64,000 nt of DNA from Anadara kagoshimensis (Eukaryota; Mollusca; Bivalvia; Arcoida; Arcidae). A program made the position numbers and the translations under genes. Where the stretch lies: positions 56,752,866 to 56,816,865 of the forward strand of contig CM037871.1 in the NCBI GenBank assembly GCA_021292105.1, in the 5' to 3' direction. Below are positions 1,598 through 64,000 of this stretch, piece by piece. Positions within the stretch are counted from its first letter, which is position 1, and every line of letters begins with the position of its first letter. The notes below the pieces were generated by a model. The model was not told the origin of the DNA. It searched no databases and was given only the letters and a program-made list of their open reading frames with translations.

Positions 1598-4500
1598 GTA
1601 ATAAATTTATATGATATATACATGTATTTATATAAGCTTTTTATGTTAGTTTTTTATCATTGTATCCTGATCAAAGACCATGAAATAAAACAAACTGTCG
1701 TTATAGATACACATATAATTACAATAATTACAATTACAATAATTTTTCACTGTATAGCTGATAAATGTGTCAGCGCACGGGAAAATGGGGCTTATCACAT
1801 TTTTTATCGAATTTCGTTTTTTGTCAAAAATTGAAAGAACGGGTGCTAAAAAATATGAAACACTGAAAATAAGTGGTTAAAATGATCAAAATTTGCAAAT
1901 TTGGGCCGATTTGAAACCACTTCTGTTAAATTTGTAATGACGTTTTCAGTCGTGTAATGACGTTATCAATAATATGAATGACGTTTACGTTTCAAAAAGC
2001 TTTGTAAAAATAACTTCGAACTTCTGTTTACACAGTAAACGGTACAGTCAGTAAACTTCGGACATTGGACCGCGTGATTGAAACACGGATGTATTATCTT
2101 TGTATTATATGTAATGACTGTTTTTATATCTACATTACTTTAACACAGTATGCTGATTGATAACTGTTCTATAAAAAGTTTTATTCTCTATTCCTCTGTG
2201 TCGTATCGAGGACATGTTGTATCCTGGTGTTCGGCACTAACATACTTTTGAACATTATCAAAGAGATAACGGCGCCTTTCTAAACTCTGTCCCGCGGGTA
2301 ACATAATATCTGGACGTTCGCGAGAGACCACTGTATTTCCTTTCAGTATCGACAAAGAAACTTCGTCAGACTCGTTGTTCTTTTTCACAAACACAACGCC
2401 CGGAAAATCGTGATGGAATCTAAATTGCTGGTATTTTTGAATTCCTGGAACAGGCTTGAAATTAAGTTCAAGAAACGCTTTTCAATTTCGCCAAACCCAT
2501 TCGTCTTCTTCATGAAACAGAACAGCGGAATTAGAGACTGCCGAGTTGTTAACCACATTTGCCAAGTCGCCAATACAATTACAATCAGATCTCTTATATT
2601 TCCTCTTAATATGAGCGAAACCGGCATCTATGACGCATCTGCAATGCCATGGAACCTGCATCATAAACTTTATCTCCTTGTTCAATCCCATCATAACACG
2701 CCATACAAAATATCCAACAAGGAATCTGTTCTTGTTCTGACCTGTGTGTAAATAAATAAAGGTAACGTTAGTTATTCAACATATTGATGCAAAATTTCAC
2801 AATTATCTTTATTTTTTTGTTCTTATTCATTACAGTACAGGCCTGTGGAAAGTTTAACACTTTAGTGCTGATTATTATGGACCGAATCGACAGCTCGTGT
2901 CGGTTCCTCGGCAGTTTTCAGCTGTTCGGCTTCTCGGTACTTTTTCGACCGCCCGGCCCCTCGTTATTTTCTTAGTCACTTGACCTCTCGTTATCAAGAA
3001 AACATAAGTTCAGTAAAATGCCTGCAGTCAATATATATCGCCAAATTTTGGAGAAGTCAAAGTGATATTACTGTGACAATTAGCAGAAAGAGGATAATAT
3101 TCATATATCAACGGGTATCTGATGATGACGGGGGATATAAACAGATTAAGAGACGTTTGTTGACTCAAGCAAAATAACTGGGATTACAGTAGTCCAATTA
3201 TTTGTTTTTAAAATCCCGCTCCATAATGGAATATAAGAATTAGAAATTATGAAAACCATCACGTAAATCTATTCCATGCACCGTCCATATATTCATTTTT
3301 TAAATTAGGATTTAAAGTCCTTTTTATACCAAATGATATTATTATTATTATTATTTTATAATTCATCCCTGTCAGATATAAATTGCTTGACCACTCGTTA
3401 CCTGGTGGCCGAGGCTCGGCTACCGAGAGGCCGAGTGAGCTGCCGAGCTATACACAGTTCAAAGAGTCCAGGGACCGAATGAGTTGCTGAGACTCAGCTG
3501 CCGAGCAGCTCAGCTGTAAGTAGCTCCAGTTGCCGGGAGATGGACAACTTTTCGGCCACTAGATGTCCACAGCTCCGCCCCTCGGCTAACTATCGTCAGC
3601 TCAGTGTTAAATTATTGACAGGCCTGTACTGATATTATTATCATTATTAGCTCACCTGACCGAAGGTCATGTGAGCTTATGGCATAGCGCAGCGTGTGTG
3701 TGTGCGTGTGTGCGTCGTTAACACCTATTTTCGACTTCTCCTCTGAAACTACTGGACAGTTTTTAATGAAACTTTGTCAGAAGTATATATGGGCCGGTGC
3801 AATTCAGATTTGTTCGTGGCGTTGCTATGGCTACCATAACTAGGTCAAGGTGACCTAGGGGTGCAAAAATCTTAAAAAATCTTCTTCTCCGAAACCAATG
3901 ATTGGAGAAAAAATCTGATGTGATATTTGGCTTCTCTAGGGTCTTAAGCCTATAGTTTGTTCATTTTGTGAAATTCGGATAAAAAATAGGTTACGCGTTT
4001 TTGCGTTTAATTTTGAAAAAATCGTAAAATAGCTTCAAACTGTTATAACTTGACTATTTGACCAGATAATGACATGGGGTTTTCAGTTTTGACATCTTCT
4101 TGTTAGTATCTTCAAAATGAGGTCAAGGTCGATTGTGAAGGTCGTGACCTAATTTTTTAACCTCTGATTATAATTATTATCTCGAAAACTATAAACTATA
4201 AACTTTTTGTATAGGTCAAGGTCACAGATGTGAAACAATACTGAAATGGTTAATTATCTCGAAAACTATAAACTTTTTGTATAGGCATGTATATTAGAAT
4301 GTTGTTGGTATTAATACAATGATCATTTTGATGTATAGAAAAAGGTCATGGGTTCAAAGGTCAAGGTCACAGATGCGAAACAATACCGAAATGGTTAATT
4401 ATCTAAAAAACTATAAACATTTTGTATAGGCATGTATATTAGAATGTTGTAGGTATTGATACAACAATCATTTTGATGTATAGAAAAAGGTCATGGGTTC

Positions 4501-7500
4501 AAAGGTCAAGGTCACAGATGTGAAACAATACTGAAATGGTTAATTATCTCGAAAACTATAAACTTTTTGTATAGGCATGTATATTAGAATGTTGTAGGTA
4601 TTGATACACCGATCATTTTGATGTATAGAAAAAGGTCATGGGTTCAAAGGTCAAGGTCACATATGTGAAACAATACTGAAATGGTTAATTATCTCGAAAA
4701 CTATAAACTTTTTGTATAGGCATGTATATTAGAATGTTGTAGGTATTGATACAACAATCATTTTGATGTCTAGAAAAAGGTCATGGGTTCAAAGGTCAAG
4801 GTCACAGATGTGAAACAATACCGAAATGGTTAATTATCTCAAAAACTATAAACATTTTGTATAGGCATATATATTAGAATGTTGTAGGTATCGATGCAAC
4901 GATCATTTTGATGTATAGAAAAAGGTCATGGGTTCAAAGGTCAAGGTCACAGATGCGAAACAAAACCAAAATGGTTAATTATCTCGAAAACTAAACATTT
5001 TGTATAGGCTTGTATATTAGAATGTTGTAGGTATCGATACAACGATCATTTTGATGTATAGGAAAAGGTCATGGGTTCAAAGGTCAAGGTCACAGATGCG
5101 AAACAATACCAAAATGGTTGATTATCTCAAAAACTATAAACTTTTTGTATAGGCATATATATTAGAATGTTGTAGGTATTGATACAACGATCATTTTGAT
5201 GTATAGAAAAAGGTCATGGGTTCAAGGGTCAAGGTCACAGATGCAAAACAATACCGAAATGGTTAATTATCTCGAAAACTATAAACTTTTTGTATAGGCT
5301 TGTATATTAGAATGTTGTAGGTATCGATACAACGATCATTTTGATGTATAGAAAAAGGTCATGGGTTCAAAGGTCAAGGTCACATATGTGAAACAATACC
5401 AAAGTGGTTAATTATCTCGAAAACTATAAACTTTTTGTATAGGCATGTATATTAAAATGTAGGTATTGATACAATGGTTATTATGATGTAAAGAAAAAAG
5501 TCATTGGGGTTTAGTATTTATGTGTTCTTTAAATCTATCAGCTAGCCATTAGTTATCAGGTGAGCGTATCAGGCCAATGGGCCTCTTGTTATTACTATTA
5601 TTATCAGTGTTTTATTGAGGTTCGAATACTGATATTGTTATACGGATAATACTTTTTGTAGAGACATGCATTTCATTGTATACTAGTATTTACGGAAAAG
5701 AGGTCAAGTGGTTCAATGCACACACTTACGAACCACCACGTCTCTCACCACCTAGGTTCAAATCCCACTCAAAACAGATCTGGAAAATTTGCTAGTTTGC
5801 TTGTCGAAGGTCGATTGTTTTCCCCTGGCTGTTTTCCCCGACATAAAACATTTCTCCTCTCTACTCTAGTGGTGCTATTTGGTCATCCATCAGATATTAA
5901 ATAAACCAAGCCTACATCTCTACAAATCCAAGTCGATTAACCTGGTTTATCGCAAACATTCATTCAAAACAATTCTTATACTTGATGCCAAGCCTCTTGT
6001 GTCCCATATACACCACCACGCTAATGTTCGGGTATAGATATGGAGAGAGAGAGAGAGAGATTTAAAAAATAACGCAGTCACGCTTACCTGAACAATTGTC
6101 GGCGTGAAAACTGGCAACATTTTCACCATAGGCAAATTTGTTTAGATTGAAATCCAGCATACTGATGACAGCATTAGGACCATGCGTCTCGCGTCCATCC
6201 TGTCCAATAGTCTGATGTTCGTCAATTAAAAAATTTCTTTGTATAGGTATACCATCTGTTCTGATGCCAAAAATCTGAACTTTACGTAAAATTAAAAAGT
6301 ACAAAGGTCCCATTTGCTTGACATAGTGTGGTAGACAAACATTCTGAGCAAAATCAAACGTATAGTGAACGTCTATGTCTCTGGATAATGGTTCTTCTGG
6401 TCCAATGTTATCAGCTAGTCCTTGCATATTTGCCTTTGCTTGTTCAATACAGTTTTTGTACACCTCGCGTTCCATGCGTACAGTAGTGATATGATCTGTC
6501 ATCTCTAGACTTGCCTGTAATTTGTCTTCTTCTGACCTTGCACACACATCTGCTTCTGGTTTGGCTATCTGGATATGTGGACAACACTGCTTCCAAATAC
6601 TCTCAAAAGATCGTATTTTTACAAAGCGTACATTCAAATCGGAGCAAACACTTTCATAACGAGCATGTATTTCTCTTTGTAATGTTGATGCTGGCAAGAA
6701 TACGAGCGGCATGCCATCTTTGCCCCTCGGGGCTGCAGGCTGTGGAAGACCCTCATCATCTGCAGTGCTGACAATAAATCGAACAACTCGCTCAACATCT
6801 GGGAACAATAGTGCATGACTTGGTTTTTTACCTTTGTTTCCATGAACGCGTGAAACAGGACCATTCTGATGATAATTTTTAACCAGCGCTTCAAATGTCC
6901 GCTTTCCAATGTCAAAAATTGTTAAAAATGATGTGCGGCAAATAGTAATTCCTTTAAATGAGTATGACAGTCTAACACGTTTACGGTCACCATATCTAGA
7001 GCGTTTAGAGTCTTTGCAAATTTGGTTGAAAGCTCCCATAACATATAATTCTTTTTCATCTTTATCCATTTCCCGTAGTGTGTAAACATGTTGTACGATT
7101 TCTTCTTGTTGGAATCTGGACAGACAATCTAGTTTACAGCCACAGCCATCCCTACAGTTCTGTAAAACATCGCTATCCAGCGTGTTTCTAGCATCATCTG
7201 TTTGCTCTGTTTGCTCCACTGTGTTTTCACTTTCATTAGATTCACTAAGGTAACTCTCTATCCTTCTATGAACTTCGGTACTGTCTAACTCTATATCTTG
7301 ATCTTCCTGATTACTATCTGATGTGTCCTGTTGTCTTTCAAACTGCGGGAAATAATCTTCATACAGTCTATTAATTTCCTACAACAGAGTCAAACAGAAT
7401 GTATATTAAAAAAAAAACTTTTTAAAAATGAAAAACTGTCTTTGACAAAATCCAAAGAATCAAACCAACGATGAATCAAGATAATGCGAACATTGCTTTA

Positions 7501-10500
7501 AAAAAAAACTGTACTTCGTGTGGGCACTCTCGGGATGATCATGTAACATGCCAAATACATGGTCGAGGTGATGTACAAGCATCGTTACTTTTTTATCATT
7601 AATGGTTGTTATAATAAATAAAAAAGGTAATTATTAGAAGAAAATAAATAAATAAAAAAAAAAAAATAAATAAAATAATAATATATAATAATAATAATAG
7701 AAATAAAAAAAAATAAAGTTAGGATTCTGAGATTCGAACTCTTGTCAGCACGATTTGGAGACTAACAACATACCACGGCGCCAACTTGTTTGTTACTTTG
7801 TTATGGTTTAATAATATACCTATTTTTAAATTATAAAAAAACATGGGACGTAACTCCCACAATGTTGTAGACTTTTCTCGTCTGACAAGGGGTATTATTT
7901 ATGGCCCGGGTGGTTGAGTATTGAGTCTAAGATTCATTATTTTTTAAATGAAGCATGGAAAAGAGATTCGTTGCAATATATGTTTTTTTTAAACAGGTTT
8001 ACATTAATTAGTAGCACTGTTGTCCTTATGGTGACTCCTGTCTTGTTCGTTAGAACTGACAGGGGCACACTGTACAGTCTGAATCTGTAAACCCTTTGTT
8101 ACTGTACATTTAAGCTTTTAAACTTTTTCTTTAAGCGTTTCAACTTTTTAAAACAACAAAACGAGTCAATCATATTAGACTGACACATTGTCAAACGATA
8201 CCATGTCTGTGATGAACCGATCATGCACACTGCACTGTCTGCAGCTCGGTGAATTTGTACTTGTTAAATAAATGATTAAATAATAATAATGATAATAATA
8301 ATAAATAATGAAAAACTTACCTCTAACTCGTCCATTGTATGAATAAACAGCAACAACAACAAAATCTCGTAGTCTATCTACACACAAGTTCAGTATATCT
8401 TTAAAATCTTGCAGCCGGCAACAACATGTAAACAAATTTACGGCGGGAGCAGTACGTCACTTTCTATGTTGATTACGCCACAATCGTGACGATTGCGATA
8501 AGCCCCTTTTTCTCATGCGCTGACACAAATATGATTTAAAATAAATAGTTTGAAGAAAGTGACATTAACTGGAATTTACTTCGGAATAAGTTCAAAATAA
8601 TATATACATACATAGATATTTATATTCAAACACAAACATACTGGTACATGTTAAAATCACAATCCTAAAACCAAAGTATGAACTTTGAAAACTGACAAAA
8701 CTTTAACTTTCACTAGGGAAGTGAGGTCAGGTGCCCCAGAAGGACAAGCACCACAAGCACCTCCTGTTTAGCTAGTTCCACCCATGTGTGAAATCAAAAT
8801 TGAGAATGAAAAGAACATTGAACTATGGGGCATCAAATATATCCAGAATACTTATATATACATCAAACTTATCAACAATATTGTGATGTTGCCGATAATA
8901 AAAACTTTCTTAAAACTAAATCAAAATTAAAAATTGATTAAGTTCTTCATGAATATTATGATATTTGATAGCTCATGAGTATTATGATATTTGATACCTC
9001 GTGAACATTTATATTTAATACCTCTTGAATATTTGTCATATTTGATAGCTCATGAATATTTGTGATATTTGTACCTCATGAATAGTTATGATATTTGATA
9101 CCTTATGCATATTTATAAAATTTGGTACCTCATGAATATTTATGATATTTGTACCTCATGAATAGTTGTGATATTTGATACCTTATGAATATTTATAATA
9201 TTTGGTACCTCATGAATATTTGATACCTCATGAATATTTATGATATTTGGTACCTCATGAATATGTATGATATTTTGATAGCTCATGAATATTTATGATA
9301 TTTTGATAGCTCATGAATATTACAATTTTATGACTTATGTTCCTGTTTTATGTTACAGAGGCACAAGTTTACCAATGACCATAACTATGTTAGTGATCAA
9401 ACTCCAAGGTATTAACTATTTTCTATTTACATTTAACATCATTTATTTACCACCATTTGTTCTTTAAGACTTTGACCTTGTAAAGGAGCGGAGTGGCATA
9501 ATGACATTTTATGCTCCATTCAGAATTCCTAATCTTGTATCAGTATGGCCAGTTTTGGGATGTCGGAGGAAACTGGAGTGCCTAGAAAAAAAACTGACAA
9601 ACGTTCTCACATAAGGATTTGCCAAACTGGGATTTAAACATAGACATTGAGACACTGCGATGGAATAAACTGGTATATAAGAGCACCTGGCCCCAGTTTC
9701 ACAATCATTCCTTAGCTGAGATTTTCCCTAACTTAGATCTGACAAATCTCATACCTTAATAATTTTGTTAATTATTAGGATATTCAGGAATTTAAGGTCT
9801 CATTTTAAAGATCTCTTCGAGCTTAAAATATTTGTGTTTAGTTTTGTCAAAAATATTTCTTCATATTTTTAGAAAACATTGTCATATTTTGCTAAACTTA
9901 AGTTAAGGAAAATCTTAGTTAAGGAACGATTGTATAACCGGGCCCCAAGGTGTTACAAAGGGGTTTGTCAATAAATCAAGAGGACCTTATAAAGAAATAC
10001 GTGAAATGATTAGATTTTTAAACTTCAAAATAATTTAGCAATAAGCAACTTTTTACTCTACATATAAATATTCCCTGTTACAAACAAATTATATCTCCTA
10101 ATTTGTGTTACCTTGATAAGATGCAGTATTCATTCAAGAAATGAATCAAGTTGGGCCAAAGCTCTCCTATCAGACAATCTGGTTTTTCAAAATTTGTTTT
10201 ATGAACATCAAACATATAGCACAATTATGTGACATAGAATGAACACTGAAGGTGATTTCAATAAAACAGATATTAATTTTAAGTGTTTTACATATTTGCA
10301 GCTGGTTTTTTGAGAATTGTTCTCGACAACAAGCAGAGACAATTTTAACCATTGGTAAAGAATTTGGTAATACTTTGATGAGAATGAGTTCTACACACAA
10401 AGATCATGGGAGTTATGTCATATCTAAAATGTTTGAAAAAGAAAACAGGTACGCAGTATGTAATACCTCATCTTAACCGGTCTTTAGACTTGTATTAATA

Positions 10501-30111: not shown

Positions 30112-33100
30112 TTTGTGTGTGTTTATTCACATATAATACTAAATGTATATGTTAATTTGCATGATATATATATATATACTGTTACACTAACTTGCATGTT
30201 AAAATAATGCATATATGCATGCCTGCATGAACTTGTAATTTTTATGTTTAGCTAAATTATAACACAATTATACAGGACAAAATATTCAATTACCTCCCTT
30301 TGGTAGAGTTAATACACCTAAATATATATTATATGTATTTAAAATAATTCCTTGTATACTGTAAAATCAGAAATATATGTGAGAGGGAATTTATAGATTT
30401 ATATGAATAATTTTTGGGGTTGGAAGAGAACATTTTGGTACTCTTTTCTTGGAAATACTTGGGGAATATAATTATATATTGTTGATGAATAAAAAAAATC
30501 CTGTTATTTTCATTGTATTTCATTCAGTGGATCTTAAAACATATCCAACTTATCTGAAAATTAGAGACATCTGAATTCAAGATAAACAAAATTATTTTGG
30601 GGAAATGAATAGCAACACATTTCAGACTTTTCTAAAAAGTTTGACTTATTATTAATTTTGAGATATCCATGTTTGAGATAACAAAAATCAACCGTACACA
30701 AATATTTTTATGGTTTTATAATGGTTGACCACAAAATCCTGTTGCAAATATTTCTGAATGTTCTTGTTTGTATATATGTATATAAAGCTTAATGTTAATG
30801 CTTGTATACAGGTACCAAGACAGGCTTTAATTATAACAAGGAACCTGTTACTACTAACCAAGGTTCACGAAATAGTACCCACTTTAACAGCACCACAAAC
30901 CAGCAAAACATAATGCCTTCACCAGCATCTAATACGGGTCCAGGAGATGAATACTACAATGAGGATAGTTATTATTCTGATGTAGATCAAGGCTTACTAA
31001 TGCATGAGGATAATGGGGAAATGTATGATGATACAGAAGGTCCGAAGGATCTGTCTGGTCATGTGACTGATGTGCTTTCAGGTAAGACGACTCAGATTGT
31101 TACATTTGATATTGAGTCCTCTGTTGTTTCCAATGCGATTCCTCCACAAAGAAACAGGTTAATGAGTGCTCCTGCTGTTCCATCTTTTCAAGCCACTAAT
31201 GGTGACGATGACAATGATGAGGATTATGAAGATACTGGTTTAGCAAGAGGTAAAAGTTGTTAGTTTTGTCACCTGTAGAAAGTATAAGATATATGACTCC
31301 CCCACTCCCACATACAAAGTTTGGATTATATTGTCACCTGTAGAAAGTATAAGATATATGACTCCCCCACTCCCACATACAAAGTTTGGATTATATTGTC
31401 ACCTGTAGAAAGTATAAGATATATGACTCCCCCACTCCCACATACAAAGTTTGGATTATATTGTCACCTGTAGAAAGTATAAGATATATGACTCCCCCAC
31501 TCCCACATACAAAGTTTGGATTATATTGTCACCTGTAGAAAGTATAAGATATATGACTCCCCCACTCCCACATACAAAGTTTGGATTACATTGTAGAAAT
31601 CACCCTGTTATATTTGTCGGTCCATTCATCTCTCAGGGTGTCCATCCATGTCTTACATTTGGACAATTACGGTAACTATAAAGGACAGGAAAGCTTGGCC
31701 GCTAGTTATATATTATTCCCTAATAAGATTTCCTTACCTAAATAGAGCTGGGACTTGTAGAAATTTTATACTTGTTACTGGAATTGCCATTACCCACCAG
31801 TACCCTAATACCTGTACAAGCAGGTATGACTGTGTCCCCCGCCTTTCAAAGAAAGAAGGGGATATAAAATTAAAATTGAGGTTGCTCCGTCCATCCTTCC
31901 TTCCTTCTGTTCATCCCTCTGAAATTCTTGTCTGTGCTAATTCTCCAAAACCATGAAGCCCTATTTCATGAAACTTGTTGAAAGCATCAACATAGATAGG
32001 AGATGCTCATATCTTTAACCCGAGAACAGGTTTGCTTATTATACCCCCTGCTTACCTTCAATGGATTTTCATGAAACTTTCACACAATCTTTGTGATATA
32101 ATTTAGATGTGCACCTCCTATTTAAAAATTTGATCCAATGGATTTGCGGGGGGTATTTTTTGTGAGCTTGTGGCTCACAGTTTTTCTAGTTTTCCTTGGA
32201 GTTATGGCCCTTTGACTGAAAAAATAAAACAGTCTAATTTTCTAAAATGCATGATTGAAGCTGAAATCTGGTTTGATATTTAGCTTCTCTATAGTCTTAT
32301 CTTAATAATTAAATCGTTTTGTGAAAGTTGCTTGAAAAATGGGTAATGTGTTTTTGCATTTTACAAAATTGAAAATTGCCTTCGTAATATAATGTCCAGA
32401 CAAAGTTTGTCTGGAGTAATTCTCCAAAACTATGGATCACTATTTCACAAAACGCAGTACAAAGCATTAACATGAATAGGAGATGTGCATTTTATAAACC
32501 TGAGTTTGTTTGCTCATTTTTCTAGGAGTTTTGGCCCTTTGAAAAATCTAAATTGGTAAAATTTCTAAAAAAAAAAAAAAAAAAAAAAACATGACTGGAG
32601 CCAAAATCTGATGTGGTATTTGGCTTTTCTATAGTTTTGAACCAATAATTCATTATATTTATGAAATTTCATTGGAAAATGGGTCATTCAAAGCATAAAA
32701 ATTGACAGATGTGAATATCATTAACCTGAGTTGGTTTGCTTATTTTCCTGGGAGTTATTGCCCTTAAACATAAGTGCAAATCACAAAAAAAAAAGAACCT
32801 GCTGGCAGGGATCTTAATTCACTGAATTTGCTTGTTAATGTAACCAAGGTAACAAAATGTGTAAATATTGTTTAAATTAATTAAAATGTATAAATCTTTG
32901 AACACATTATTCTACATTTGTCAGCCTTTGATAATGTTATTGATAGTGTTGATACTTTATATCAGAATGTCAGCACTGTTTTAGCACATGGAACCTGTAA
33001 ATCAAGGACAGATTTGGTACTCAAAGGAAGACTTTTGATAGATGTCTTTTTATCTGAAAGTTTAATCACGATTTATTTTATTTTTGTGAATTTGAATATG

Positions 33101-44516: not shown

Positions 44517-47500
44517 CCTGGTCCAGCATCTGAGAATTAATATCATGAATGTCACCGGACTGACTTGAGATCAATGTTTTTTCTGTTAGTACTCTAAAAG
44601 AACCAATTACTGTGCTAAATAGTAGATAAACGTACAGTACAGACATGTCGAAAGTTTAAGGACTCAATGCTCGGCTACCGAGCAACGGAGATATGATAAC
44701 TAATGGTCGACACACTGCCGAGGGATAGGTAACAACTGCCGAGATATAGGTAGCAAGGGATCAAAATGAGGTGTCGATTCAGTACTAATTCGTTAGATAA
44801 GTGTTAAACTTTCGACAGCTAGATACCTTGTTAACAAACACCATGTATGTGTTTCTTAAAATGAACCGAAATGAGCGTAATGTATTTGCCCACTTCACTG
44901 TACTTACATTTTCCTTTATATACTGTTTGATCTTCTGTTTGTATGATTCTGGAGGCGTCACTCCAACCATTCGACCAAGAAAATCAAAGAATATACGTTT
45001 TACATATGTTGGTATCGGTTTCTTTCCTCCATAGTGTAAGTAGTTCACCACAACTGCCATAATAGTAGCATATCCCACCAAGAAAAGTGTGAAATCAAAA
45101 TAGATCGCTGAAAATATAGACAGACAATAAACATAAGTGACGGCATATAGAGTGCCATGATTCCACATACAACACAAGAAATCTGATATAACAAAATCGT
45201 GTGTATAAAGATCTATATAACAAACCTGTTTATAAAGTATGGTATAGCAAAAAAAAAATGTTTATAACGAAGTCTAACAGAAAAAAACATGTTTATAACG
45301 TAGTCTGATATAATACAATCATGTTTATAACGAAGTCTGACAGAAAAAAACATGTTTATAACGTAGTCTGATATAACACAATCATGTTTATAACGAAGTC
45401 TGACAGAAAAAACATGTTTATAACGTAGTCTGATATAACACAATCGTGTTTATAACGAAGTCTGACAGAAAAAAAGTTTTTAACGTAGTCTGATATAACA
45501 CAATCGTGTTTATAATGAAGTCTGACAGAAAAAAAGTTTTTAACGTAGTCTGATATAACACAATCGTGTTTATAATGAAGTCTGACAGAAAAAAAAGTTT
45601 TTAACGTAGTCTGATATAACACAATCATGTTTATAACGAAGTCTGACAGAAAAAAACATGTTTATAACGGAGTCTGATATAACACAATCTTGTTTATAAC
45701 GAAGTCTGACAGAAAAAAAAGTTTTTAACGTAGTCTGATATAACACAATCGTGTTTATAACGAAGTCTGACAGAAAAAAAAGTTTTTAACGTAGTCTGAT
45801 ATAACACAATCTTGTTTATAACGAAGTCTGACAGAAAAAAAGTTTTTAACATAGTCTGATATAAGCCAATCATGTTTATAACGAAGTCTGATAAAAATCA
45901 ATCATGTTTATAGCGAAGTCTAATATAATATAATCGTGTGTATAAATAGGACTAAAATATCAAAATTAATTAAATTATACATATAACGTAGTGTGGTATG
46001 GCAGAATATCATGTACATGTTTATAACGAAGTCTGATAAACAAATCTTGTTTGTAACGAGTTGGGTTGAGTTCAGTAATGGTGTTTAACGTCCCAGTCAA
46101 GAATATTTCAGAAATTTTGCCTGTGCGTTGGGCTGATGGCATTATACAGCAGGGTTCTTTAGCATGTCAAGCCTACTGTGACACGGGACTTCGTTTATTT
46201 TAAGTTCCCACTCGAAATAACCGTGACTTTCATTTCGTAATGCCGAGTGCTTGGCGAAAGAAAGGTCACTACCCACTTTCAAGTATTTTGTCAGATCCGG
46301 TCGGGGTTCGAACCCACAACCTTCCACTTACGGAGCAAACACTCTACTAACTGAGCTACCACAGTGGTTTTGTTTGTAATGAAGTCTGGTGTCTGATAAA
46401 CAAAGCATTGTAATAACGCAGTCTGATATGGCAGAATTATCTTATAACGAAGTCTGATAAAAAAATCACGTATAGAATGGAAGTCCTATATAAAAATCAT
46501 GTTTATAACGGAGAAGCGTATTTATAACGAAGTCTGATATAACAAAATTATGTTTATAACAAAGAAGCAGTTTAACGTAGTCCGATATAACAAAACACAT
46601 TTAAAACTAAAAAGCATACTTAAAACAAGGTCTGATAGAGCAAATCATGTTACAACTTAGTCTGATTAAAACCATGTAAATAACCAAGTATGATATAACA
46701 AAGCCCTGTTTATAACGAAGTCTGATATTAATCAAAAATAAACACACTAATCCAAGTCCAAAAAACCTAGCTTGGAACTGACAAGTTCGGTAAGACACGT
46801 GAACTTCCACCAGGAAAAGGGACCGGGTGCTCCGTAAGGGTAAGCACCTCCTGTTTAGTTAGCTACACCCGCCATTTGTGTGAAAGGAACATGGAAATAT
46901 GTGATGTCAAATATATCCAGAGCAATCCTGGAACAGGGACATCAAACAAAGCCGTGTTTACAACGAAGTCTGATTAATGTGGTATGGCAAAAAATCATAT
47001 AGCAGTACATGCTTATAACGAAGTCGGATAAAAAAAACATGTTTATTACAAAGTCTGATAAACAAATCAGGTTTATAATAAAGTCTGATAAATAAAAGCA
47101 TCTATATGACGAAGTCTGATATCACAAATCGTGTTTATAACGAAACCTGATAGAACAAAATCGTGTTTATAACGAAATCTGATATAACAAAATCATGTTT
47201 ATAACGAAATCTGATGTAACAAAATCATGTTTATAAAGAAGCCTAATATAAAAACATGTTCATGAAGTTTGATTTGATAAAATTATACCAAAAAATAAAT
47301 ACGTGGCAGGGATTAAACTTAACTGTTTTAAGTTTGGGTACAGTTCACTTCATAAAAGAAGTTGTAATAGTAATAAGTACTAGGTGAAATGTGTAAAAAT
47401 TTAGGGGCTCAGGCTGATTTTAGGAGCCATTGGCCACTGCTTATCCTAATCCCCGACGCCACTCTGTGGTAGAATCTGAACATTTTTTATGTAAGTGGTT

Positions 47501-50500
47501 TAAATTGGCATCAACAGCATAATTTCTAGACAATCGACATGAAATGGACCAAGGGATTGGTAACTGGCAGCTATCTTAATGGTAAGCAATTATGAATATT
47601 TGGTGCCTATTTGTAAAAATAACTCACCTAGATACGGCACGTGGTCTGCTGAATGCGGTAAGGAATCTGCTATAAGAATCTGGAATACTGCTAAGGACAG
47701 CATCACTGTAATCTCCAAGGAAACCTTCTCTCCTGATTCACACGGCAAAAAAATCCAAATACCCCCATCCCAGCTATAAGTGAAGATGGTATTATCAAAC
47801 TAACAACGTGAAATCTAGGCTTTCTTCTCATCTCTAAATAAAACGTAACATCTGGATAGGGTTCGGGACAGCAAGAATAATAGAAAGCATGACGTTTAGC
47901 TAAAAATGATGGTAACTGCCATTCGGAATTTACATCCATTGACGATAAATCTCCTGAGGGGTTTTTAGGCACGAAATCAAGTTCTAAACCATGATAACTC
48001 CATGATCCAAAGACAAATTTGCATATCTGTACGTCATACGGGAAATGTGACACGTCTATAACACACCGGTTATGGATCACAGAAGGAAAATTGTAATACA
48101 CAGTGCCGTCCGAATATACGTTTGCCGCAAAATCTTCTTTTCCAAAGAATGTTTCGCCAGTACTGAAAAGAAACAAAATAGTGGCTAGAAACGAACAAAT
48201 TACAACGTCAAGTGTGTTTAAAATGATATAAGGTTAGTAGCGCCAAGCCTATTCTATTTTAAAACAATTTTCTATATTTTTATATATCGAAAATTGGGGC
48301 TGTGGTGGCAAAATGATTTTAGATAAAAAAGCCTTCAAGCCCGAGGTGCCTCACCGCTGTGGCCTATTCGACCCCGATCGACCCCAAATGAAAAGGGTTT
48401 TCCCTGTAAGCATTTACCAGTTAGCTCAGTGATCGGTGGCAATGTAATGGACAGAGTAACATGTGATGTCTATCAACCGCATTGCGAGCCAACGTAGTTA
48501 GCACTTTTACGGTCACCAAAAGTATGCATCGCAGATCAGAAACACTTTCACAAACTCGCACAGCACATGAACTTGTGTTCAAATTAGAGGCGTATGGTGA
48601 ATAAAAAATGACTTGTCCCGAATATAGGTGATAAATGGTTGATGTGACGTAACATTCAACTTGCAATCTTTCGATTGCACAAACTATTTGCACTAAAACT
48701 TTATTTCAAAAATATAAAACATGCGAAATACGTGTTTTGCAAAACGTACACTGCATTACGTAAAGTCTTCAAATATGTTGGAGCAGTGGAAGTGATAAAA
48801 AATACCAGATAATTTTCAACAAAAATAAAACAGCTTACTTGTCATAAAGTGTAATATCAGGTACCCAAACGGCCTCAAAAGGAAGAATTATATTTTGTGT
48901 TCCATTATAATCTGAAGCATTCCATGTCAGTCTACAATCTGTCCATTTCTATAAAACACAATGGTACATATAATATATATTGATGGAGACGCAATAAGAC
49001 GTGTTATTGGATACATGAACATTGAATGGAACAAGAGGTATTACTATTTTCTTATTTTTTCTAGCTCACTTTCTTAATTTACCCGGCGTATACCGTAGTT
49101 GTGTAAATATGTAGAGCAAGTGACTGAATTAATATCACTCAAAATTACCCAAATCTGGTTAAAATATTTTAGCGTCATTCATCTTTGTATCGTACAAAAG
49201 CGTATAGGGGACATTGTATAAATTGTAACCGAAATCACCCTGGATATAATTGACGCCCCATGTTTCATTTTAATGAAGAACGTGGTGGGTATATCTAGCT
49301 AAACAGGGGGTACTCAGTAACTTATTCCTCGGGAGCACCCAGATTCGATCTCGCTACCCTGGAGGTGTTTTACTAAATTTGACAGTTTTCATAGTTTTTT
49401 ACCTTTTTGTGATTTGAACATTGACTGGTATCTATGTTTTTGATTTGATGATTATTAACAACCGTATGTTGTGACGTGACAGACCTGCACTTCATCTCAC
49501 CAAAATTAAGATACATACATATTATATACACAGTGTGTATGTACAACCCTCAGTATTAGGTCGAGTCCTTTTGTCGTGGCCGTATCACTACGAGTCGCGC
49601 TTGCGCGACGAGTAGTGATACAGCTACGACAAAAGGACGAGACCTGATACGAAGGGTTGTACATACACACTGTGTATATGATATTTTTATCTTACATTTC
49701 TTATTAGGTCATTAAAATAATAAAAAACCCAATACTTTATGTGAAAAAAAAACATTTTACCACAGAAAACCACTGAACTATGTTATGACATGTTTTGTAG
49801 TAATGACGTCATTGTTTACATTTGACAAATAGGAGATTCCCCAATGACGTCACAATGAGAAGTGCACGCCAATGTTGTATCACCACACTGTGGTGATACA
49901 AGATTCTGTATCATACGTGTTCGATAAAACTTGTATTTCATCAAATACAGACAGAAAAACTAGTCTAATGTTAGATAAAAAATGTGTGAAAGAACACGTT
50001 TGTAAAGTTACCAAATGATTATATGGTTACACTTTTGTCTCAAAACAGTTACATTTCAATCTTCAGGTTCTGTTACCGTACGATTTGACGGAACTCGCTT
50101 GCCAAGTTTTCATTTTTTTCCCCCTCACACCACCATGCACAACCACACCAACATCATTAGTAGACAAGGGTTTTTATATATGTCTCTCGTAGACATTACT
50201 AACGTTATTATATTTTATTTAAATTTAAAGCATTTTCCTCCCAATCGTTCATCTGTTTAGTATTGTAATATACTAGCTTATTTTTTAAATGTTTGGCTTT
50301 AAAGTTTAATTCTTAAACAAACACTATTTGAATCTTTTGTTTCACACCGAAGCCAGGATTAAATACTAGTAATCATTATGATTATATTTTTTTACATGAA
50401 TGCAAACAGATAAAGACCATGTGATAAAAAGCACGTTAAGTCTAGTGACCAAGCACAAGGCGCTTCAAACGGTAAAAAAATAATCCATGTGAAACGATGG

Positions 50501-53500: not shown

Positions 53501-56500
53501 ATGCTACAACTTTTCCCTTTTTAACTGTTTTTATTTGACGTAAATATTGATGGCTGTATTGACTCCGGGATGTGTTGTGAACTGTTCGGGTTGTAGCAGC
53601 GGAACTGCTATGAGGTTCCAGTTCCTGAATGAACATTATTTTCACTTATTTGTATACCAGTATCAACAATACATGTTTACCGTCGTTCATCATATGACCC
53701 TCTATATAAAGTCCACCTGCCTATTAAGTACACTATTGATCAGTTACCTTGGCGGTCTTTATACATAGGTTATGTTGTATATTAAATATTATTTTACACA
53801 CGTGAGAAGTATTTTCTGATGACAGAATTCAGACTTTGGGTCTCTGTATAACAGTACACGCCATGTTTTGGTAAAATGTATAGATAACATCTCTGTGATA
53901 CTGGTCCATTACAGGGATGAAGATTAGCAGGGGCCAAGTAGCAATCAGTCTGGGTCCCTTAATGTTTACACATTTTAGCTATTTATTACTATTATGTACA
54001 ACTTCTCTTCTGAAGCCAGCTGGGCCCCTCACTCAAAATAGTTAAGCTTCATCCCTGTTAATGTTTAAAACAATCATGATTTTATAGGTCGAATATGAAA
54101 AATTTCTAACCATCGGCCCAATTAATTTAAGGTGTCATTCTGAAGATTTCTTAAAGTTTTTAACAATTGCATTTATAAATCTATTGACTACCTTTGTCAA
54201 AAAAAAGTCTATTCTTAGTTCCATTTGCCGCTTAATTTAAGTTACGAAAACTATCAGTTAAGAAACAAGACCAAAATTTAACAGGTTACACAAAATATAC
54301 ACACAATGACATAACAACAGGGGTTTCAAACACCAGAAATCTCCCGTCTGCCAAGTTCTGGGCAATGCCTTATATGGCTAAAAAATACTTTGCCAAAAAT
54401 AAGAAGTTTCCTGCAGGCTACACATTTAAACACTAGATCCAAAGAAGTACCGGAGCTGTAACGGGACGAATGAATAACTTAGCGGACGATCGAGCGGCAT
54501 CTAGATTGAATTATAAACCGGTTGGCATTATGAATTACCTCCCTTGAACAAAATAATTACATGTAAAACAAATAATTTTTTAAGAATTTATTAAATGTTA
54601 CCTTTAAATTTTAAATAAAAAGTAATAAGTGCTAAAATACATTTTTTAAACGAAATCATGAAAGTTATTAATAATTATAAAGCTTAAAAAATGCATGTAT
54701 ATGATATATTGTATAAAATACTTTATAATCATTTTTGGATCGTATTACTTGAATAATGAAAACGAGATTCATCTACACACGCACGCTTCGCTATGCCATT
54801 ATTATCATTAGAGCCTGTACGCTCACCTGGCATAATAATGAAAGAATATTTGAAGTCCCATACTAGGGGCAGTAAAAACTAATAAAGAAATCAATGAAAT
54901 ACCACCCTGTGTGGTCATAGCCAGGACCAAAACATAAACAGTATCACGAATAATACTAGTATTTACAATCTCATTCCTCAGGACACCAAACAGGAGAGGA
55001 CTTGTTTAAGGGAGCTCTACACACCTTAAACACAATGCAGTAATGGCAGTATAAATGCTTTAACAAACCAGAAAAAAATCTGGATATGTATCACTTGGAT
55101 TAAATGCTAAACACTATTCTCTATAGATTTACGTGGTGTAAATGGCAAACTGTGACATCGAAGTTTCATCAATTCCTGTCAATTTAATAAAATCCAACGA
55201 GTTCCAAAATATGGAGGTAATATAATAAACTAAATATGTCGGACAGTTACAATGTACGGATTGTGGCGCATATCTACACCAAGCCTGTAAAGGAATAACA
55301 AGATCTACATTCTTCAAGTACACCTGACATGGCGGTCCGAAATATACTTGTGAATTTTGTAAAAACAGTCGGACTGGCAATTAATCTGACTGACACAATT
55401 ACAAATTTTTTAACAGGGAACAAACGTCGAAGTGGTGTTATGTCGCTTAAAACAGTAAAACCCCCGAGGAAAATATCTTATTTTGGTACAACCCCAAAAC
55501 TTGCGTCAACTCCGGGAAAATCTGACCTCTTCAGTCTTGGAAGCTTTGTTAGGCATTAGAAATTTGAAGTTGAAAATAAGATATACCGAAACAACACTTA
55601 ACACTCTAGACTACAAAACATCAATACTTGTGCAAAATGTTAAAACCAGATAAATAATACACACAAACACTGATAATGAGGGAACTACAGAGTCTAGAAA
55701 TAGTACACACAAACACTGGTAATGAGATACCTACGGGGTCTAGTAATAATACACACAAACACTGATAATGAGGGAACTACGGGGTCTAGTAATAATACAC
55801 ACAAACACTGGTAATGAGGGAACTACGGGGTCTAGTAATAATACACACAAACACTGGTAATGAGGGAACTACGGGATCTAGTAATAATACACACAAACAC
55901 TGGTAATGAGGGAACTACGGGATCTAGTAATAATACACACAAACACTGGTAATGAGGGAACTACAGGGTCTAGTAATAATACACACAAACACTGATAATG
56001 AGGGAACTATGGGGTCTAGTAATAATACACACATTACAAACACTGGTAATGAGGGAACTACGGGATCTAGTAATAATACACACAAACACTGGTAATCAGG
56101 GAACTACGGGGTCTAGTAATAATACACACAAACATTGATAATGAGGGAACTACGGGGTCTAGTAATAATACACACAAACACTGGTAATGAGGGAACTACG
56201 GGGTCTAGTAATAATACACACAAACACTGGTAATTAGGGAACTACGGGATCTAGTAATAATACACACAAACACTGGTAATGAGGGAACTACGGGGTCTAG
56301 TAATAATACACACACTGATAATGAGGGAACTACGGGGTCTAGTAATAATACACAAACACTGGTAATGAGGGAACTACGGGATCTAGTAATAATACACACA
56401 AACACTGGTAATGAGGGAACTACGGGATCTAGTAATAATACACACAAACACTGGTAATGAGGGAACTACGGGATCTAGTAATAATACACACAAACACTGG

Positions 56501-57584
56501 TAATGAGGGAACTACGGGATCTAGTAATAATACACACAAACACTGGTAATGAGGGAACTACGGGATCTAGTAATAATACACACAAACACTGGTAATGAGG
56601 GAACTACGGGATCTAGTAATAATACACACAAACACTGGTAATGAGGGAACTACGGGATCTAGTAATAATACACACAAACACTGGTAATGAGGGAACTACG
56701 GGATCTAGTAATAATACACACAAACACTGGTAATGAGGGAACTACGGGATCTAGTAATAATACACACAAACACTGGTAATGAGGGAACTACGGGATCTAG
56801 TAATAATACACACAAACACTGGTAATGAGGGAACTACGGGATCTAGTAATAATACACACAAACACTGGTAATGAGGGAACTACGGGATCTAGTAATCATA
56901 CACACAAACACTGGTAATGAGGGAACTACGGGATCTAGTAATAATACACACACACACACACTGATAATGAGGGAACTACGGGGTCTAGTAATAATACACA
57001 CAAACACTGGTAATGAGGGAACTACGGGATCTAGTAATAATACACACAAACACTGGTAATGAGGGAACTACGGGGTCTAGTAATAATACACACAAACACT
57101 GGTAATGAGGGAACTACGGGATCTAGTGATAATACACACAAACACTGATAATGAGGGAACTACGGGGTCTAGTAATAATACACACAAACACTGGTAATGA
57201 GGGAACTACGGGATCTAGTGATAATACACACAAACACTGATAATGAGGGAACTACGGGGTCTAGTAATAATACACACACACACATTTGTAATGAGGGAAC
57301 TACGGGATCTAGTAATAATACACACACACACACTGATAATGAGGGAACTACGGGGTCTAGTAATAATACACACAAACACTGGTAATATAATGAGGGAACT
57401 ACGGGATCTAGTAATAATACACACAAACACTGGTAATGAGGGAACTACGGGGTCTAGTAATAATACACACAAACACTGGTAATGAGGGAACTACGGGGTC
57501 TAGTAATGAATCTACAACACCAACTGGGGGTTGTATCAGAAACTCTAGAAAAGGTCAAGGCAGATAATTGTTGGAATGCAATGA

Positions 57585-60090: not shown

Positions 60091-60345
60091 CTTTACAAAC
60101 AACTTATTTTGCACCTTACTAGCATTACTAATATACGTAATACTAGGCTGATGCTCCTATTTTGTCATTTGAACTGGTTTCCATAAGCAAGTAACATGCC
60201 GTTTTTAAACCGAATCTGTTGCATCACGTAAACTTCGTCACACTGAATCAATGGATGATTGGCTCAATCAATCTGTAAAATAAAGTAAAATACCAAAAAA
60301 TGTAAGGTGTATATACACAATAAGGTTAACTTGATGCTTAATTTA
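60091..60345 (-). promoter_or_regulatory. Putative promoter / 5' UTR region of channel gene
   Basis: The 255 bases between the start codon and the satellite must hold the 5' UTR, and perhaps the core promoter unless an untranslated first exon lies beyond. No clear TATA box or initiator could be assigned by eye. Confidence 0.25.
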
Positions 60346-63300
60346 CAGATTACAATATTGTAGTATTATCTTGATTTACAGATTACAATATTGTAGTATT
60401 ATCTTGATTTACAGATTACAATATTGTAGTATTATCTTGATTTACAGATTACAATATTGTAGTATTATCTTGATTTACAGATTACAATATTGTAGTATTA
60501 TCTTGATTTACAGATTACAATATTGTAGTATTATCTTGATTTACAGATTACAATATTGTAGTATTTTCTTGATTTACAGATTACAATATTGTAGTATTAT
60601 CTTGATTTACAGATTACAATATTGTAGTATTATCTTGATTTACAGATTACAATATTGTAGTATTATCTTGATTTACAGATTACAATATTGTAGTATTATC
60701 TTGATTTACAGATTACAATATTGTAGTATTATCTTGATTTACAGATTACAATATTGTAGTATTATCTTGATTTACAGATTACAATATTGTAGTATTATCT
60801 TGATTTACAGATTACAATATTGTAGTATTATCTTGATTTACAGATTACAATATTGTAGTATTATCTTGATTTACAGATTACAATATTGTAGTATTATCTT
60901 GATTTACAGATTACAATATTGTAGTATTATCTTGATTTACAGATTACAATATTGTAGTATTATCTTGATTTACAGATTACAATATTGTAGTATTATCTTG
61001 ATTTACAGATTACAATATTGTAGTATTATCTTGATTTACAGATTACAATATTGTAGTATTTTCTTGATTTACAGATTACAATATTGTAGTATTTTCTTGA
61101 TTTACAGATTACAATATTGTAGTATTATCTTGATTTACAGATTACAATATTGTAGTATTTTCTTGATTTACAGATTACAATATTGTAGTATTATCTTGAT
61201 TTACAGATTACAATATTGTAGTAGTATCTTGATTTACAGATTACAATATTGTAGTATTATCTTGATTTACAGATTACAATATTGTAGTATTATCTTGATT
61301 TACAGATTACAATATTGTAGTATTATCTTGATTTACAGATTACAATATTGTAGTATTATCTTGATTTACAGATTACAATATTGTAGTATTATCTTGATTT
61401 ACAGATTACAATATTGTAGTATTTTCTTGATTTACAGATTACAATATTGTAGTATTATCTTGATTTACAGATTACAATATTGTAGTAGTATCTTGATTTA
61501 CAGATTACAATATTGTAGTATTATCTTGATTTACAGATTACAATATTGTAGTATTATCTTGATTTACAGATTACAATATTGTAGTATTATCTTGATTTAC
61601 AGATTACAATATTGTAGTATTATCTTGATTTACAGATTACAATATTGTAGTATTTTCTTGATTTACAGATTACAATATTGTAGTATTATCTTGATTTACA
61701 GATTACAATATTGTAGTATTATCTTGATTTACAGATTACAATATTGTAGTATTTTCTTGATTTACAGATTACAATATTGTAGTATTATCTTGATTTACAG
61801 ATTACAATATTGTAGTATTATCTTGATTTACAGATTACAATATTGTAGTATTATCTTGATTTACAGATTACAATATTGTAGTATTTCTTGATTTACAGAT
61901 TACAATATTGTAGTATTATCTTGATTTACAGATTACAATATTGTAGTATTATCTTGATTTACAGATTACAATATTGTAGTATTTTCTTGATTTACAGATT
62001 ACAATATTGTAGTATTATCTTGATTTACAGATTACAATATTGTAGTATTATCTTGATTTACAGATTACAATATTGTAGTATTTTCTTGATTTACAGATTA
62101 CAATATTGTAGTATTATCTTGATTTACAGATTACAATATTGTAGTATTATCTTGATTTACAGATTACAATATTGTAGTATTATCTTGATTTACAGATTAC
62201 AATATTGTAGTATTATCTTGATTTACAGATTACAATATTGTAGTATTATCTTGATTTACAGATTACAATATTGTAGTATTTTCTTGATTTACAGATTACA
62301 ATATTGTAGTATTATCTTGATTTACAGATTACAATATTGTAGTAGTATCTTGATTTACAGATTACAATATTGTAGTATTATCTTGATTTACAGATTACAA
62401 TATTGTAGTATTATCTTGATTTACAGATTACAATATTGTAGTATTATCTTGATTTACAGATTACAATATTGTAGTATTATCTTGATTTACAGATTACAAT
62501 ATTGTAGTATTATCTTGATTTACAGATTACAATATTGTAGTATTATCTTGATTTACAGATTACAATATTGTAGTATTATCTTGATTTACAGATTACAATA
62601 TTGTAGTATTTTCTTGATTTACAGATTACAATATTGTAGTATTATCTTGATTTACAGATTACAATATTGTAGTATTATCTTGATTTACAGATTACAATAT
62701 TGTAGTATTTTCTTGATTTACAGATTACAATATTGTAGTATTATCTTGATTTACAGATTACAATATTGTAGTATTTTCTTGATTTACAGATTACAATATT
62801 GTAGTATTATCTTGATTTACAGATTACAATATTGTAGTATTATCTTGATTTACAGATTACAATATTGTAGTATTATCTTGATTTACAGATTACAATATTG
62901 TAGTATTTTCTTGATTTACAGATTACAATATTGTAGTATTATCTTGATTTACAGATTACAATATTGTAGTATTTTCTTGATTTACAGATTACAATATTGT
63001 AGTATTTCCTTGATTTACAGATTACAATATTGTAGTATTATCTTGATTTACAGATTACAATATTGTAGTATTTTCTTGATTTACAGATTACAATATTGTA
63101 GTATTATCTTGATTTACAGATTACAATATTGTAGTATTATCTTGATTTACAGATTACAATATTGTAGTATTTTCTTGATTTACAGATTACAATATTGTAG
63201 TATTATCTGGATTTACAGATTACAATATTGTAGTATTTTCTTGATTTACAGATTACAATATTGTAGTATTATCTTGATTTACAGATTACAATATTGTAGT

Positions 63301-63672
63301 ATTATCTTGATTTACAGATTACAATATTGTAGTATTTTCTTGATTTACAGATTACAATATTGTAGTATTATCTTGATTTACAGATTACAATATTGTAGTA
63401 TTATCTTGATTTACAGATTACAATATTGTAGTATTATCTTGATTTACAGATTACAATATTGTAGTATTTTCTTGATTTACAGATTACAATATTGTAGTAT
63501 TATCTTGATTTACAGATTACAATATTGTAGTATTTTCTTGATTTACAGATTACAATATTGTAGTATTTCTTGATTTACAGATTACAATATTGTAGTATTA
63601 TCTTGATTTACAGATTACAATATTGTAGTATTATCTTGATTTACAGATTACAATATTGTAGTATTATCTTGA
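60346..63672 (+). repeat. 33-base satellite, about 100 copies
   Basis: Unit GATTACAATATTGTAGTATT then ATCTTGATTTACA. Variants are mostly at one position (TATTATCTT, TATTTTCTT, TAGTATCTT). A shorter 32-base unit (GTATTTCTT) occurs near 61880 and again near 63563. Each unit contains the 12-base palindrome TACAATATTGTA. Because 33 is a multiple of three, two spurious frames of over 500 codons appear (IYRLQYCSIIL repeated); they are broken only by the 32-base units. I see no reason to call them genes. Confidence 0.97.
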
Positions 63673-64000
63673 TTTTAACTATGCAATACATATTATTTAA
63701 ACTTATTATGTTCGCCGAAAAGCATACTCTTACACCTACTGTGTTCACAGCACAGTTGCAAATTATAACAATTATTGTTGTTGTATCACGTGATATATAC
63801 CCCTTAAGTAACGTTTATGCGAAACGAAATTGATTGGCGTAGGCCTACTTGGACATTTATGACGTTATTTGGAGAATGTGCAACGATCAACATATCCATT
63901 AAAACTTTGAATTATGTAGCTATTACTAATACAGACTATGACATTTTAGCCTTCGTATTGGCACAGCGACTTCAAAGAGTTATTGATAAGTTGGTTCACC
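63673..64000. other. Unique sequence after the satellite, nothing recognised
   Basis: AT-rich, no exon borders or repeats identified. Confidence 0.4.

Follow-up and report, generated by a model that had tools for sequence, protein, structure and literature searches.

A decayed copy of a recently mobile DNA transposon, probably of Sola2 type, in Anadara kagoshimensis, and bacterial relatives of its DUF7869 protein

Ends, gene layout and present state of the element

The sequence analysed in this work, hereafter called the window, is a stretch of 64,000 nucleotides from the bivalve Anadara kagoshimensis (assembly GCA_021292105.1, contig CM037871.1, positions 56,752,866 to 56,816,865 of the forward strand). 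Between positions 1763 and 8530, flanks included, it holds a DNA transposon with inverted ends and a three-exon transposase gene on the minus strand. Such an element had been proposed in an initial annotation made from the letters alone, and its layout was recovered by our analysis: the terminal inverted repeats (TIRs) of 33 bases are alike at 29 positions, AAAT flanks the element on each side, the three exons are separated by introns with GT/AG borders, and the Cys cluster and the residues D347, D432 and D474 of the encoded protein are all found where they had been placed. As a control for the likeness of the ends, 200 shuffled 33-mers were compared with the reverse strand of the whole window, and the best of them reached 22 of 33. 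The features of the element are listed below.

1763-1766, no strand: AAAT, left-hand target site duplication (TSD)
1767-1799, plus strand: TIR at the element's 3' end with respect to the gene
2188-2741, minus strand: transposase exon 3, with QNKN, the third Asp and the C-terminal region (DUF7869 match)
2742-6087, minus strand: intron 2, GTAAGC...ACACAG, GT/AG borders, containing the nested insertion
3650-5585, no strand: nested insertion, absent from this site in all 13 other copies compared
6088-7378, minus strand: transposase exon 2, with the Cys cluster, a stretch like a helix-turn-helix (HTH), and the first and second Asp
7379-8320, minus strand: intron 1, GTAAG...TGTAG, GT/AG borders
8321-8335, minus strand: transposase exon 1, with the start codon, MDELE
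8494-8526, minus strand: TIR at the element's 5' end with respect to the gene
8527-8530, no strand: AAAT, right copy of the TSD

In exon 2 the Cys cluster begins at 7156, and the codons of the first and second Asp lie at 6355-6353 and 6100-6098, respectively; in exon 3 the third Asp is encoded at 2628-2626 and the stop codon occupies 2190-2188. Three features had been missed by the initial annotation: an in-frame TGA at 2484-2482 in exon 3, the loss of 12 codons, and the nature of 3650-5585 as a later insertion. The missing codons are apparent from comparison with the open copies described below, in which exon 2 has 1327 bases against 1291 in the window, and the gap lies next to 6544-6542. Because of the TGA and the missing codons, the window copy seems not to be autonomous now. 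The sequence beyond the TGA can still be aligned with the C-terminus of the bacterial relatives described in the last section, and was therefore regarded as part of the gene.

The stretch 3650-5585 is a later insertion of 1.9 kb. It sits in an ATT-rich microsatellite of intron 2 and has a tandem core of 8.9 units of 145 bp; judged by eye only, its ends resemble Helitron-type repeats and its 3' hairpin is Helitron-like. The 145-bp tandem repeat is also present in another copy of the family, L017 (2858-3780), at a different place and about 79-86% alike, and the exon 2 matches of L017 are split by about 2 kb. An inverted repeat of intron 2 (2824-2861 and 3603-3640) was considered as a further nested insertion and rejected, because the stretch up to 3649 is present in other copies and is therefore family sequence.

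Related copies, target site duplications and empty sites

The host assembly, which comprises 1,115,223,567 bases in 36 contigs, was searched with exon 2 and with the left end of the element. Exon 2 gave at least 101 matches at E values up to 0.001, the window included, many of which are exon pieces or diverged relatives. The left end gave at least 54 matches; besides the window, 20 of them that reach at least query base 236 start at the first base of the TIR, and other matches start later, for example at query bases 9, 35 or 85. Fourteen loci, L005 to L018, belong to the same family, the window copy being L005, and both ends were read for nine of them, those of L014 in the loci L042 and L041. 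For a tenth copy, L017, the 3' end only was read (in L044).

The initial annotation had proposed to look for further copies, 4-bp duplications and empty sites, and all of these were found: other copies have the same ends and different flanks, perfect 4-bp duplications occur in six of the nine same-family copies with both ends read, and an empty site was identified for one same-family copy (L010). The six duplications are all of the form A(A/T)(A/T)T, being in gene orientation ATTT in the window and in L012, ATAT in L009 and L014, and AAAT in L010 and L016. The length of the complete copies (n = 5) is 4950-4985 bp, and the pairwise DNA identity among six copies, that is, these five and the window copy with its nested insertion left out, is 97.06-99.45%.

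A spliced frame of 631 amino acids is open in three of the seven other copies checked (L008, L009 and L010). Premature stops were found in L007 after 533, in L016 after 275 and in L014 after 159, and for L006 the border motif of exon 3 was not found. Exon 1 (MDELE) and both the donor and the acceptor of intron 1 are present in all seven, as is the donor motif of intron 2, the acceptor motif of which was found in six. The description of the element as autonomous in type thus seems not to apply any longer to the window copy, with its TGA and 12 missing codons, although an open frame is kept in three other copies.

The length of the duplication is fixed by two empty sites. When the flanks of L010 were joined with one AAAT taken out, the resulting sequence matched a second place about 0.5 Mb off on the same contig over bases 1-339 of 339 at 91%; an exact match of 35 bases across the junction requires that 4 bases be removed, and none is obtained with 0-3 or 5-8. 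The second site belongs to a sister family of six loci (L026, L027, L028, L030, L033 and L034), the ends of which, GACTGCCGTCATGAG..., are related to those of the window family. The sister family has more than 90% DNA identity internally, a length of 5.6-6.0 kb in three copies, a protein identity to the open copy of 42-44% (four loci compared), and perfect 4-bp duplications in all three copies read of the six loci. Its copy L027 lies within a satellite, and the removal of exactly 4 bases restores a 36-base satellite stretch that occurs five times in the flanks of L027; no other removal length from 0 to 8 works. We concluded that the target site duplication is exactly 4 bp. In the two families together, nine of the 12 copies with both ends read have a perfect duplication, which is ATTT, ATAT or AAAT.

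The shared ends, the 4-bp duplications and the empty site support the reading of the locus as a transposon. A domesticated host gene that came to lie between inverted repeats by chance might also have introns and retain an open frame in some copies, as is the case here; such an origin is hardly credible in view of the near-identical dispersed copies, the exact ends, the empty site and the broken state of the window copy itself.

The transposase and the classification of the element

In the protein of the open copy, DUF7869 is the only Pfam family found at E values up to 1, with an E value of 3.2e-15 and 56.7 bits over residues 416-567. The exon 3 piece of the window matches the same family at 3.5e-6 and 27.2 bits, just above the curated cut-off of 26 bits (PF25273), and exon 2 of the window alone matches no Pfam family at E values up to 1. 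According to the initial annotation, proteins of this type are common in invertebrate databases. In Pfam the family stands without an assigned function, whereas here it is tied to defined ends and a 4-bp duplication. The three Asp residues of the window protein correspond to D359, D444 and D486 of the open copy, in which residue numbers are higher by 12. Asp is present at these positions in every aligned cell from 46 of 48 loci, several of which overlap and many of which hold part of the gene, so that they do not represent 46 independent proteins; the sole exception is a single gap, found where L024 is aligned a second time.

As judged by eye, strands and helices near the Asp triad seem to follow each other in the order known from RNase H-like domains. 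Residues 155-204 of window exon 2 (P0001) have a weak match to the NCBIfam model ISNCY_2, of 19.9 bits against a cut-off of 250, and this sub-cut-off match suggests a putative HTH stretch in exon 2. In the most likely mechanism, the DUF7869-family protein would use its N-terminal Cys-rich/HTH region to bind the 33-bp ends. Its D-D-D active site, probably lying in an RNase H-like domain, would then excise the element by metal-dependent catalysis, and insertion with a stagger of 4 bp at targets of the form A(A/T)(A/T)T would give rise to the 4-bp duplication after repair.

The Sola superfamily was reportedly founded by the paper of Bao et al. (2009). As set out in the portion consulted of one published description, Sola elements have a DDD transposase, a 4-bp TSD and TIRs of 11-1124 bp, are mostly 2-9 kb long, and occur in bacteria and metazoans (PMC10741241). 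In the section consulted of a second source, the TSDs of Sola2 elements are AT-rich AWWT in one amoeba and ATAT, AAAT or ATTT in another, and a Fanzor1 gene is present in addition in some of the Sola2 elements known from social amoebae (PMC3627910). A curated bivalve library includes 14 Sola2 elements, according to the excerpt seen of its description (PMC10294476). The element studied here agrees with these features: the aligned Asp triad is consistent with a DDD transposase, the TIRs of 33 bp and the length of the five complete copies fall within the Sola ranges, the 4-bp duplication is established by two empty sites and nine of 12 perfect copies, the target is AWWT in these nine cases, and relatives of the DUF7869 protein were likewise found in both metazoans and bacteria. 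Because the DDD residues, the 4-bp AWWT duplication, the end length and the element length fit the published description, we filed the element as Sola2-type. We concluded that the window very probably contains the decayed remains of one copy of such a transposon, which moves by cut-and-paste and belongs to a young family that was mobile until recently; the superfamily is apparently not new, and the element seems to belong with the Sola2 kind that is already known.

Duplications of 4 bp occur also in Chapaev (CMC), Kolobok and piggyBac, the last two of which use TTAA as target, so that one of these superfamilies might be considered instead. Among the 12 copies with both ends read there is no TTAA duplication, which argues against piggyBac and Kolobok. 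Members of CMC (Chapaev, EnSpm, Mirage) have C(2)C and H(3-4)H motifs between the second D and the last E; the third residue here is D, and no CxxC was read in the open copy from D444 to D486. Moreover, Pfam at E values up to 0.01 gives DUF7869 alone, both for the open copy and for the bacterial proteins. An origin from any of the three is therefore very improbable.

It is unlikely, too, that the element is a DDD transposon outside Sola2, be it Sola1, Sola3 or an unnamed DUF7869 superfamily, which shares 4-bp A/T-rich duplications by chance. This alternative draws on the fact that the Sola2 filing uses the TSD, the ends, the length and the DDD residues only, and that a literature search found no paper in which DUF7869 is named (motif strings of the protein returned unrelated papers only). 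Against it stands the AWWT preference, which is that given for Sola2 in the section consulted of PMC3627910 and which was observed in nine of 12 copies from two families.

Several points weigh against the reading of the element as a Sola2-type cut-and-paste transposon. The name was inferred from features of the element, which were set against the published description and not against Sola2 protein sequences. In an A/T-rich genome, an A/T-rich duplication of 4 bp is weak evidence when taken by itself, and the two empty sites bear the weight. A clean duplication is missing in three of the nine same-family copies: the flanks of L008 are ATTT and ATTA (3/4), L007 has ATAT on one side and a shift within an AC repeat on the other, and the 3' end of L006 is interrupted by an AT repeat. 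A search by sequence gave no useful match to a PDB chain, the five weak matches at E values up to 10 including four to ribosomal protein eL21, and a second PDB sequence search gave no match.

Elsewhere in the window, a 33-bp satellite occupies 60337-63675 with 101 copies and 98% matches, and two long open frames there arise from the repeat. Further tandem arrays lie at 55653-57507 (unit 46 bp), 45258-45945 (61), 31266-31594 (65), 8947-9321 (27) and 920-1291 (43). The minus strand also has, at 47706-48233 and 44788-45261, open frames that belong to a neurotransmitter-gated ion channel gene, with a ligand-binding domain at an E value of 2e-25 and a transmembrane region at 0.0052, which is below the cut-off.

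Bacterial relatives and the meaning of DUF7869

An initial scan of prokaryote contigs at the protein level yielded 20 candidate stretches, none of which was confirmed. By using a DNA pattern for the motif HADNCxGQNKN, two stretches were found in these contigs: L001, in a contig of a Nitrospirales metagenome-assembled genome, with an open frame of 661 amino acids, and L002, in Candidatus Thiomargarita nelsonii, with the gene in two overlapping frames. A third relative, L048, with an open frame of 636 amino acids, came from a DUF7869 search of 42 genomes of the order to which L002 belongs. The proteins of all three genomes exceed the DUF7869 cut-off, are colinear with the window protein, keep the D-D-D residues and are 31-34% identical to the open copy over the aligned parts. 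At the level of the NCBIfam cut-offs, no model was found for the bacterial proteins, and P0002, P0004 and P0005 had no match; the first frame of L002 has a weak MarR-type match of 16.4 bits against a cut-off of 185.

No introns were seen in the bacterial copies, of which L002 and L048 are about 2 kb long. Their inverted ends measure 35-42 bp, start with G (by eye) and have A/T-rich 4-bp flanks. In L002 the inverted repeat is perfect over 36 bases as aligned by BLAST, or 35 if the ATTT flanks are the duplication; in L048 the two ends agree at 97.6% over 42 bases and are flanked by ATAT and ATGT (3/4); and in L001 they agree at 88.9% over 36 bases, the flanks being ATTT and ATAT (3/4) if the end is placed, by eye, at GAGG. 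A perfect duplication is thus found in one of the three, L002. In L001, an ISL3 element (269-1609) adjoins the DUF7869 gene and lies within the outer inverted repeats of that gene.

Genomes with DUF7869 are rare in these groups: one of 274 drawn from the class of L002, one of 395 drawn from the phylum of L001 and two of 42 in the order of L002, each count including its own seed, with only the last set adding a new one (L048). None was found in 14 control genomes each time, and no relatives were found in viral contigs, in plasmids or, with one query sequence, in phages. Other transposase families are named in the part consulted of a mobile-element survey of a different Thiomargarita cell (PMC4853749). 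The bacterial relatives may represent contamination of the assemblies; against this, the genes beside L001 and L002 are of bacterial type, those of L002 including one with a PqqD domain and one with an HPr kinase domain (below cut-off). Two neighbours of L048 were tested; one matches a DDE domain and the other nothing.

In a small tree of 13 sequences, rooted at the midpoint, the three bacterial proteins form a separate clade on one side with a support of 0.994 and long branches. A recent transfer from animals to bacteria was considered and rejected on account of this placement, the long branches and a mutual identity of only 32-38%.

It is possible, if rather doubtful, that DUF7869 is a single transposase lineage which animals and bacteria share and which targets AWWT with a 4-bp duplication in both, the bacterial branch of which would be an unnamed insertion sequence family; the lineage may be separate from Sola2. 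The assignment of the window element to a Sola2-type transposon gives DUF7869 a likely function, namely that of transposases, and if so, genes of this kind would have to be masked and not included in counts of host genes. Small and intronless, with recognisable ends, the bacterial copies would offer simpler systems for the chemistry of the DUF7869 lineage.

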